Of a DNA stretch of 41,542 bases, positions 39,318 to 41,542 are shown piece by piece. Within the stretch, counting starts at the first letter, position 1; each line of letters opens with the position of its first letter. The DNA is from Anaerolineae bacterium (GTDB lineage: Bacteria; Chloroflexota; Anaerolineae; J102): NCBI GenBank assembly GCA_027002405.1, contig JALWZT010000285.1, positions 1 to 41,542 on the forward strand, in the 5' to 3' direction. Both the position numbers and the translations under genes were made by a program. A model generated the notes under the pieces. The model had not been told where the DNA came from. It worked only from the letters and a program-made list of their open reading frames with translations, and made no database searches.

Positions 39318-39318
39318 G

Positions 39319-39829
39319 TTAGCACGCCCAACGTAGCGAAGGTCGGAGTGTTTTCATCAATTCCGCTTGGGTACCAGAGAGGAAAATAGATGCGATTTGA
39401 ACAGGCTAATCTATCGGATGACAAGGGGTGGTATGTCGGCCCTTGGAATTCTGACTTGGCAATTTCGGTTGGATTTGCCAACAAAGGAGTAGATCAGCCT
39501 CATGTCCATTCTCAGATTACGGAGATCTACTTGGTCGCGCGCGGTACTGCGGAAATCCGAGTAGAGCAACAGACCATAAGGCTTTCAGTTGGGGATGTGC
39601 TTATCATAGATCCTGGCGAGGCTCACACATTTCTATCGAGTTCACCGGATTACTATCATTTTGTGATTCACACACCTGGTCTGACTGGCGAGAGAGCACA
39701 TACCGAGAAGTCATCAGTGCCACGTTCGCGCTTGGGTCTGTGATTAGGGAATCTTCTGCAGAGTTGGAGGGCGTGCTAACCAGCGCTTGCACCTGACGCC
39801 GCTTCGCGGCGCAGGTGAAGCGCAAGCCG
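39319..39829 (+). mobile_element. Integron gene cassette A (511 bp)
   Basis: The cassette begins TTAGCA just after the G of GTTAGCA (39318-39324). It ends at the G of the next GTTAGCC (39829). Its own attC R'' box is TGCTAAC, the exact complement of its first bases with that G, as expected for a cassette that has existed as a circle. It holds one rightward gene (cupin) and one attC site, the canonical cassette layout. Confidence 0.75.
39390..39743 (+). CDS. Cupin-domain protein (cassette A cargo)
   Basis: The product is 117 residues, a single small cupin barrel. HVHSQITEIYLVARGTAEIR is cupin motif 1 (HxH then a later Glu), and VGDVLIIDPGEAHTFLSSS is motif 2 with its His. Such proteins bind a metal and act as isomerases, dioxygenases or sensors; the substrate is unknown. 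AGAGAGGAAA lies just before the ATG. GC content is lower than in the core genes. It is the only gene of its cassette, followed after 30 bp by attC. Confidence 0.82.
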   Translation: MRFEQANLSDDKGWYVGPWNSDLAISVGFANKGVDQPHVHSQITEIYLVARGTAEIRVEQQTIRLSVGDVLIIDPGEAHTFLSSSPDYYHFVIHTPGLTGERAHTEKSSVPRSRLGL

Positions 39830-39835
39830 TTAGCC
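39774..39835 (+). other. attC recombination site A
   Basis: R'' TGCTAAC (39774-39780) and R' GTTAGCC (39829-39835) bound an imperfect inverted repeat: gcgcttgcacctgacgccgc against gcggcgcaggtgaagcgc with a ttcg loop. The left arm has two unpaired extra bases (G in cttGcacc, A in ctgAcgcc). Extrahelical bases on one arm are the hallmark by which integron integrases choose the strand. Total 62 bp, within the usual range. Confidence 0.82.
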
Positions 39836-39954
39836 TAAAATGCTTCCGTGTTACTTTCCACGCAGCGAAGAAAGAGGGTATACTACAAGATAAAATAGGG
39901 CTACCCGATCGTTTGCCGTCGGGTCGGCGCCAGGTGAGGCCGGCGGAAGATGTA
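39828..39954 (+). repeat. 127-bp exact direct repeat, internal copy
   Basis: Identical to the last 127 bases of the window (41416-41542). It starts one or two bases before the attC crossover point and therefore represents the 5' end of cassette B. Confidence 0.95.
39855..39884 (+). promoter_or_regulatory. Promoter inside cassette B
   Basis: TTTCCA (39855-39860), 18 bases, TATACT (39879-39884). It would give a leader of about 190 nt before the antitoxin gene. Toxin-antitoxin cassettes usually carry their own promoter, unlike most integron cassettes. Confidence 0.55.
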
Positions 39955-40083
39955 ACCTATGCGCCATCCTCAAACCGAGGTGGTCTCGAGACCGAGACAC
40001 CGGAAGCATTCACCCAGCTTTTATTTCCCCAAATGGGTGTCCAAAACTGTCGGGTGGCCAGGACCCCAAGGAAAGGAAAAACC

Positions 40084-40323
40084 ATGAATCAAATCCAGGA
40101 ATTGGAAAAACGAATCCACGCTTTGCCTCCTGAGGGACAACAGGAGATATTGGACTTTCTGGCTTCCTTGGAGCAACGTTATCGCATCTCACAACAAAAA
40201 TCCCCCGCAACTAGAAAGCCTCTGCAGGCGTACGCTTTTGTGGGGTTGTGGCGAGAACGCAGAGACATGCAGGATAGTATGCAATGGGTGCGTGACCTGC
40301 GTCATAGAGAGTGGCAAGGATAA
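40084..40323 (+). CDS. DUF2281-type antitoxin
   Basis: The product is 79 residues. IQELEKRIHALPPEGQQEIL and DFLASLEQRY form the N-terminal helical signature of DUF2281 proteins, which are common antitoxins next to PIN toxins. The C-terminal part (VGLWRERRDMQDSMQWVRDL) is the likely toxin-binding arm. AAGGAAAGG lies about five bases before the ATG; a longer upstream frame is not supported. The stop TAA overlaps the toxin ATG by one base (TAATG). Confidence 0.85.
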   Translation: MNQIQELEKRIHALPPEGQQEILDFLASLEQRYRISQQKSPATRKPLQAYAFVGLWRERRDMQDSMQWVRDLRHREWQG

Positions 40324-40709
40324 TGGCCGAGCTGCTGGTAGATACCGATATTTTGATTGATGTGGCCCGGGGCATCGCAGAAGCCGTTCGGGCCTTGGAA
40401 GTATGGGAAGCAGAGCGAGCCATTGGCATTAGCGCCATTACTTACATGGAATTGTTGGTAGGATGCCGCAACAAACGCGAGCAGCGAGCCGTAGAACAGT
40501 TCGTGAAGCGTTTCGAATTGATGCTGGTTAATGCGACCATAACAGAAGAAGCCGTTCGTCTATTGCAGCGATATCGGCTGAGTCATGGTCTACTGATTGC
40601 CGATGCTTTGATTGCAGCTACGGCCATTGTGGATGGCATACCCTTGGTGAGTAAGAATCAAAAGGATTACCGTTTTATTGAGGGTCTAGAACTCTGGCCA
40701 TATCTGTAA
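40323..40709 (+). CDS. PIN-domain (VapC-like) ribonuclease toxin
   Basis: The product is 128 residues. Acidic active-site residues are in place: LLVDTDILIDVARG (first Asp), ISAITYMELLVGC (Glu), GLLIADALIAATAIVDG (Asp), and NQKDYRFIEGLELWPYL at the end. VapC toxins cleave tRNA or rRNA in a magnesium-dependent way. The start overlaps the antitoxin stop; an ATG four codons upstream is possible but lies within the antitoxin reading. Both genes are carried by integron cassette B, where such pairs stabilise arrays. Confidence 0.9.
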   Translation: MAELLVDTDILIDVARGIAEAVRALEVWEAERAIGISAITYMELLVGCRNKREQRAVEQFVKRFELMLVNATITEEAVRLLQRYRLSHGLLIADALIAATAIVDGIPLVSKNQKDYRFIEGLELWPYL

Positions 40710-40901
40710 AATGAAGACATGCCTCATTGCGGTTGGCAAGAGGCCTCGCGACTCCCAGCGTCGGCCCGTGGCGGCGGGTTGTTTGTATCGGGCGGGCATG
40801 GCAGACCTTGAAGATCTGGGAGACGCTTCAAGGTCGGGAACGGGCGTTGGTTCGGCGGGCGATGGCGCGTTGGTCGGCAGCGTGGTAGAATGCCGGGGAG
40901 G

Positions 40902-41185
40902 CCGCCCGGCGATGAAGTGATGCTGTTGGCAAACCTCAAGCAGGTTGCCGAGCAATCCGGTAGGAGCGGTGATCCGGCCGATTGGCCCCCACCCCTGCCC
41001 CTCCCCCGCCAGCGGGGGAGGGGTGATCGCCCGGAACGGAGGGGCTACGTAAGACTCATCTCCTCCTGCAGAAGCGGTCGAGAGGAGGTATCCCCAGCGT
41101 ACCAATAGTACCAATAGTAAACCAACAGTATCATGAAGTCGCCGGGCTATAAAACGGCGCCGGATAAATCCGGCTAGCCCCGCAG
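40902..41185. repeat. REP-like hairpin element, copy 6 (split by insert)
   Basis: The left part ends ...cggcgatgaagt at 40918; the right part resumes atgaagtcgccggg at 41133. It is interrupted at the same base as copy 4. Confidence 0.85.
40919..41132. mobile_element. MITE-like element, copy B (214 bp)
   Basis: Ends gatgctgttggcaaac and (reverse complement of the right end) gatactgttggtttac form imperfect inverted repeats. ATGAAGT flanks both sides (40912-40918; 41133-41139). The interior is closely similar to copy A, with a ccctcccccgccagcggggg-type hairpin. Near the right end, accaatagt is duplicated, which explains much of the 12-bp length difference. Non-coding. Confidence 0.8.
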
Positions 41186-41348
41186 GGGCGTTGTTTCTAG
41201 CCGGGGGAATTATCCCCCGGCACCGGCCCGTGGTGGCGAGTTGTTCGTGTCGGGGGGCGTGGGAGACCTTGAAGGTCTGGGAGATGCTTCAAGGTCGGGA
41301 GCAGACGTTGGCCCGGCTGACCCATCGTTGTCTTTTCACCCTCGGCAT

Positions 41349-41423
41349 GGCTAACATCTGCGTTCAGGGGACGGCTTCGCCTCGCTGCGCTCGGCTCGCC
41401 GCCCCTGACGCCTGTCGTTAGCC
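41349..41423 (+). other. attC recombination site B
   Basis: R'' GGCTAAC (41349-41355) and R' GTTAGCC (41417-41423). The arms gcgttcaggggacggc and gccgcccctgacgc pair with two extrahelical bases on the left arm (T in gcgTtcag, A in gggAcgg). A longer loop (cgcctcgctgcgctcggctc) caps the stem. Total 75 bp. Confidence 0.8.
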
Positions 41424-41542
41424 TAAAATGCTTCCGTGTTACTTTCCACGCAGCGAAGAAAGAGGGTATACTACAAGATAAAATAGGGCTACCCGATCGT
41501 TTGCCGTCGGGTCGGCGCCAGGTGAGGCCGGCGGAAGATGTA
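41416..41542 (+). repeat. 127-bp exact direct repeat at window end (start of cassette C)
   Basis: Identical to 39828-39954 up to the last base. After the attC B crossover a new cassette begins with the same 5' end as cassette B, including its promoter. It is cut by the window edge, so whether the whole cassette is repeated cannot be seen. Confidence 0.9.

Follow-up and report, generated by a model that had tools for sequence, protein, structure and literature searches.

The window, that is, the whole stretch of DNA analyzed here (a contig of 41,542 nucleotides from an uncultured member of the Anaerolineae, Chloroflexota), carries in its last part the gene rarA, a toxin gene, the remnant of an integrase gene (intI) and a leader followed by two gene cassettes, each ending in an attC site. 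The coordinates of all features are given in Table 1.

Table 1. Features at the rarA end of the window (C followed by a number, contigs of the same assembly; G followed by a number, genomes of relatives)
Feature	Position	Strand	Evidence and remarks
rarA (AAA ATPase, RarA fusion type)	35872-38136	-	NCBIfam NF009881, 1202.6 bits; chromosomal gene flanking the integron
BrnT toxin gene	38330-38611	+	PF04365, E = 2.6e-32; outside the cassettes, between rarA and the intI remnant
Possible intI 3'-tail relic (residues 303-334)	38855-38950	-	tblastn, 66% identity, E = 1.8e-6
intI remnant	39035-39103	-	Start codon and ~23 codons (MPSTPKSPKLLDQLRFTLRRMHYP*), remainder deleted
attI-containing leader	39039-39324	+	Common to C321, C98 and C288 (full), C74 and C225 (partial) and the G011 integron
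Candidate Pc	39109-39137	+	TTGACA, 17 nt, TACACA; points into the cassettes
attI crossover	39318-39324	+	AATAAATA G/TTAGCA; paralogous leaders match up to here, then diverge
Cassette A (cupin)	39319-39829	+	Bounded by the attI crossover and attC1; R'' rule satisfied
Cupin-domain protein, 117 aa	39390-39743	+	PF07883, 41.1 bits, E = 1.5e-10, above cut-off
attC1	39774-39835	+	62 bp, TGCTAAC...GTTAGCC; fold and leave-out covariance model (26.8 bits)
Cassette B (toxin-antitoxin)	39830-41417	+	Bounded by attC1 and attC2; R'' rule satisfied
DUF2281/VapB-like antitoxin, 79 aa	40084-40323	+	PF10047, 33.8 bits, above cut-off; NF050009 weak
PIN-domain VapC-type toxin, 128 aa	40323-40709	+	PF01850, 64.9 bits; NF047959, E = 3e-14, below its cut-off
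Dispersed REP/MITE-type repeat in cassette B	40902-41227	.	Genome matches up to 98% identity
attC2	41349-41423	+	75 bp, GGCTAAC...GTTAGCC; arms GCGTTCAGGGG / CCCCTGACGC, lineage-typical
Contig end	41416-41542	+	Last 127 bases exactly repeat 39828-39954; contig ends at 41542

Each cassette ends in an attC site whose R'' and R' boxes and L arms are complementary, with extrahelical bases, as the first-pass annotation had described from the letters alone, and both folding and a covariance model agree with it. On the bottom strand, attC1 and attC2 form imperfect hairpins (-40.7 and -46.4 kcal/mol, respectively), each of which has two single extrahelical bases, both on the same arm. The covariance model was trained on six attC sites outside the window (two on C321 and one each on C66, C343, C98 and in the relative G011); attC2 reached 55.7 bits with it (E = 5.7e-12) and attC1 26.8 bits (E = 1.5e-4), the reported strand was favored, and no further attC site was found in the 41.5-kb window. 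Genome-wide, attC2 was the top match, in a scan that failed on attC sites of ~130 bp and on attC1 and is thus unsuitable for a total of such sites. Neither site was caught by the strict R-box pattern (RYYYAAC/GTTRRRY), since this lineage uses GTTAGC[CA], and a relaxed R-box scan was too permissive and was replaced by a score for the R boxes together with the L arms. With the latter, the real window gave attC1, attC2 and one perfect REP palindrome (38914-38968), while eight of ten Markov simulations of the window had no match and the remaining two had two each (both strands counted), i.e., sites of attC quality arise rarely in simulated sequence of this length. An Rfam search of the window gave no match. 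The arms of attC2 (GCGT-N-CAGG / CCTGACGC) are also present on C321, C66 and C343, and the 3' half on C212 and C326 as well; in all five contigs, similar attC ends stand in cassette-like contexts, and not as hairpins unconnected to cassettes, the finding that the first-pass annotation had named as fatal to its reading. The far lower score of attC1 and its different sequence type count against the integron reading; a different type would fit an origin of cassette A from elsewhere.

In each cassette, the first seven bases and the R'' box are reverse complements of one another (GTTAGCA and TGCTAAC in A, GTTAGCC and GGCTAAC in B). This rule, on which the initial reading had leaned most, holds for both cassettes of the window and is not general in the genome, given that cassette 1 of C321 starts with GTTAGCC, yet has TGCTAAC as R''. 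The cupin and toxin-antitoxin genes were likewise recognized correctly, as shown by the matches to PF07883, PF10047 and PF01850. In cassette B, the PIN toxin adjoins a small antitoxin gene, with both Pfam domains above cut-offs, as expected of a type II VapBC pair; the VapB and VapC equivalog cut-offs are not reached by either protein. The repeat load that had been noticed in cassette B also stood: the queried region has 92 matches in the genome, mostly to the repeat in Table 1, and this high-copy REP/MITE-type element, present at 32685-32955 too, lies at dozens of genome places with 79-98% identity.

The exact repeat at the contig end indicates that attC2 is followed by a cassette that begins like B. 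Taken as an assembler k-mer junction, this repeat implies that the true array continues past position 41542. C288 begins with 127 bases that are identical to a part of C212, and both repeats look like k-mer junctions, with one cassette start behind two different attC sites. We did not accept a circular, excised cassette B as the source of the contig-end repeat, since the repeat could just as well come from a second B in tandem or from a different cassette that begins in the same way. On C288 (L044:93-153) and C212 (L042:9757-9816), attC-like sites on the minus strand lack the 3' L arm and keep the R''/R' boxes, and the same cassette start stands behind both. Near-identical starts (the first 50-120 bp) with different genes behind them were found on C66 (L043:1323), C212 (L042:8327-), C98 (L077:5367-) and C288 (L044:1089-); C66 and C212 have 121 bp in common (97%) and C98 and C288 ~50 bp, with different bodies. 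That C98 and C288 hold the same cassette was rejected, the common part being the start only (~50 bp). From their sequences, the shared starts suggest hybrid cassettes or swapped cassette bodies, and tandem duplication, shuffling or hybrid cassettes could be the causes.

Cassette A is preceded by a leader with a counterpart in an intact integron of the same genus, detected in a search of 20 genomes of the order. In Anaerolineae bacterium S145_12 (G011, WGCR01000219), the leader (C219:1723-1944, 78% identity to that of the window) directly adjoins a complete intI (1969-2925), whose product scores 453 bits with TIGR02249, against a curated cut-off of 265. There, the leader sits between the intact intI and the cassette array, and intI points away from it, followed by rarA. 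The stub in the window matches the N-terminus of this IntI in 20 of 21 residues (95%, E = 5.5e-7). Orthologs of the window's rarA lie beside the intact intI in G011 (79% identity) and beside a truncated one in G015 (87% identity), another genome of this genus, in which intI is cut after ~21 codons at the same locus. Given the leader homology, the IntI N-terminus and the shared rarA, the window is therefore read as the rarA integron with intI deleted after ~24 codons. An attI site with a G/TT crossover ahead of the first cassette is indicated both by the homology to the G011 leader and by the paralogous leaders, which diverge at G/TTAG. Intact integrons of relatives have ...TTAATAG/TTAGCC, ...TCAATAG/TTAGGC and the like upstream of intI, and in the distant Chloroflexota integrons of Ardenticatena sp. 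S012_161 (L110) and Ardenticatenaceae S141_12 (L111), which are intact and have attC sites detected by the covariance model, ...TTAATAG/TTAG is found in that place. IntI proteins above the curated cut-off occur in 5 of 20 members of the order, and the initial view of such an array as unusual in this lineage does not hold.

Within the leader, the TTGACA of the candidate Pc is present in all compared copies that span this stretch, and most have TTGACA-17-TATACA or similar; in the window copy, the -10 box is degenerate and the candidate scored under the promoter-scan threshold. A leader ORF ending in TAG at the crossover was rejected as a conserved peptide: differences do not favor any of the three codon positions, and in the window the ORF contains a stop. 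On the other side of the stub, the match to the intI 3' tail would agree with an internal deletion of intI; it is weak, since the matching tail sits in a dispersed REP-type repeat, and we do not rely on it. The place expected for the body of intI is occupied by a unit (38208-38905) made of the BrnT gene and a small ORF (38592-38834) in the antitoxin position, which has no Pfam match, bracketed by direct repeats of ~66 bp (38208-38276 and 38840-38905, 90% identical). At the rarA locus of G015 (C42, L095:4398-5601), a two-gene unit, which resembles a toxin-antitoxin pair and has no NCBIfam match, comes after the truncated intI N-terminus and the remnant of attI, and behind it, at the contig end, lie the C-terminal 110 aa of an IntI (94% identical to G011); this gene order is not accounted for by a simple deletion. 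More attI-like leaders, mostly eroded, are present in relatives (G011:C493, L094:1331-1427-; G013:C18; G003:C66; G004:C453). The stretches examined around them hold no intI, and G011 and G003 have an intact one on another contig.

The integrase had been reported as missing, which applies to the intact gene and not to its trace, the 5' end at 39035-39103. A profile search of the whole assembly with TIGR02249 gave no match above the cut-off and no intact intI, only XerC/D-like matches and, as the best, a fragment on C343. The fragment is a C-terminal piece of 114 aa (145 bits, profile positions 197-299) that retains the IntI-specific region and the catalytic C-terminus, and a cassette with an attC lies ~500 bp from it. 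Since it is internal to its contig, it is truly truncated. The assembly is a fragmented metagenome-assembled genome (363 contigs, 98.6% complete), so that an intact intI may lie on an unbinned contig. At the window locus itself, a divergent intI with the IntI-specific domain is absent; with ~24 codons left and no match above the cut-off, the locus holds the remains of an integron that is inactivated and not active.

We are thus highly confident that the window holds the attI-proximal end of an inactivated sedentary chromosomal integron at an ancestral site beside rarA. Two other readings of the locus were weighed against it. Palindromic REP-type repeats could mimic attC sites with no integron connection, and the genome is indeed full of REP/MITE palindromes, one of them in this very region; however, the model selects attC1 and attC2 alone, and these bracket complete genes, come after an attI and obey the R'' rule, which makes such mimicry extremely improbable. 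Slightly less remote, and still very unlikely, is a CALIN, which the first-pass annotation had considered: attC cassettes inserted at a site other than attI (attG), or left without any attI or local integrase gene. The two attC sites without a neighboring intact intI fit that definition, as do their low number and an assembly that lacks an intact intI, on this contig as elsewhere. A CALIN would, however, have no integron platform at the locus, whereas here a leader (39035-39324 with the 5' end of the lost intI) stands ahead of the insertion point. Its counterpart in an intact integron of the same genus is the attI/intI intergenic region, the stub has the correct divergent orientation, and the synteny with rarA is conserved.

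The leader is not confined to the window. Copies with 79-83% identity over 274-285 bp are found at C321:6775-7057 (by prfA), C98:6218-6491 (by a Xer-like gene) and C288:1084-1357 (by rplI), and shorter, eroded ones on C74 and C225. Similarity among the four good leaders ends at ...AATAAATAG/TTAG, where different cassettes follow; on C321, C98 and C288, a cassette-like stretch and an attC follow (without the 3' L arm on C288). Judging from the alignment, this break at G/TTAG is the behavior of a site-specific insertion point. All copies keep just the first ~18-27 codons of intI, cut after codon ~24-27 in the window, after ~21 in C321, C288 and G015, and earlier in C98. It is possible, and we propose it tentatively, that the genome has a multi-attI integron, with four or more units of candidate Pc, attI and intI stub spread over separate loci, an array of its own being built at each by an integrase (now lost or encoded elsewhere) that acts or acted in trans, and attI serving as a spreading docking site. 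Somewhat less probable, in our view, is that the leaders on C321, C98 and C288 are remnants of complete integrons that arose by duplication of the entire unit and each of which afterwards lost its intI in place. The slightly different truncation points would fit the latter, and several intI genes per genome are common (20% of integron bearers, PMC2426708); on the other hand, every copy retains only the 5' end, and C321 and C288 derive from one already truncated copy, since their stubs lack the same 2 nt and a common REP-type sequence lies upstream. A whole-integron origin concerns the copies alone and is compatible with the inactivated rarA integron proposed for the window.

The anatomy of the window is accounted for by established integron biology, in which the bottom strand of attC recombines with a double-stranded attI. 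Cassettes A and B would have been inserted by the former IntI through attC x attI recombination at G/TTAG (39318) and now stand in tandem with an attC at the end of each. A later deletion would have reduced intI, which runs divergently from the array, to ~24 codons, and the array would now be rearranged, if at all, solely by an integrase supplied in trans. Cassette A may be read from the Pc-like promoter in the leader and the VapBC-type pair from a promoter of its own, the pair presumably resisting the loss of its cassette. At least three other sites in the chromosome would have received a copy of the leader (intI 5' stub, candidate Pc and attI), with separate cassettes behind each copy.

Sedentary superintegrons of the Vibrio type resemble the window in having lineage-homogeneous attC arms and toxin-antitoxin cassettes; this genome differs from them in its short arrays spread over several attI copies and in that no intact integrase was found. 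In Xanthomonas, a sedentary chromosomal integron at ilvD has lost intI by deletion or frameshift in many lineages and kept the array (PMC12444791). That integron, which is vertically inherited, is, like the one in the window, fixed beside one housekeeping gene, with extra cassette clusters at other loci, although in another phylum and at another locus (ilvD versus rarA). The extra clusters of Xanthomonas are described as CALINs (PMC12444791), whereas those of this genome are headed by copies of the attI leader with an intI stub. With CALINs as defined by IntegronFinder (PMC9024848), the window has in common an attC cluster without a neighboring intact intI, and it differs in keeping attI and the intI 5' end at the locus. 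Given that IntegronFinder detects no attI outside class 1 (PMC9024848), it would probably file this array as a CALIN. The delta-attI-type cassettes of mobile integrons (PMC12901181) are another case of attI-derived sites at extra positions; there, a partial attI closes cassettes inside one array, while here whole leaders head arrays at distant loci. The integron of Anaerolineae bacterium S145_12 has the leader, the rarA locus and the genus in common with the window, and differs in its complete intI and its cassettes. Chloroflexi intI genes and Chloroflexota integrons have been listed before (PMC2426708 and PMC9668308, respectively), and about a third of intI genes are pseudogenes (PMC2426708).

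A single attI close to the integrase is described as the typical layout of an integron, and outside class 1 this site is poorly characterized (PMC9024848). Several attI-headed arrays in one chromosome depart from this layout, and we found no precedent for them in the limited, open-access literature consulted. Homologous leaders that can be compared within one genome and with intact relatives fix the crossover and the candidate Pc outside Proteobacteria, and the rarA locus offers a loss of intI at a fixed site in Chloroflexota, bracketed by relatives. If the proposed layout is true, a single integrase could assemble arrays at many places in the chromosome by way of the dispersed attI sites, and some CALINs of other genomes would be overlooked attI-headed arrays. 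Compared with these systems, the window itself belongs to a known kind, in a phylum that has received little study, and it is the multi-attI layout that would be new.
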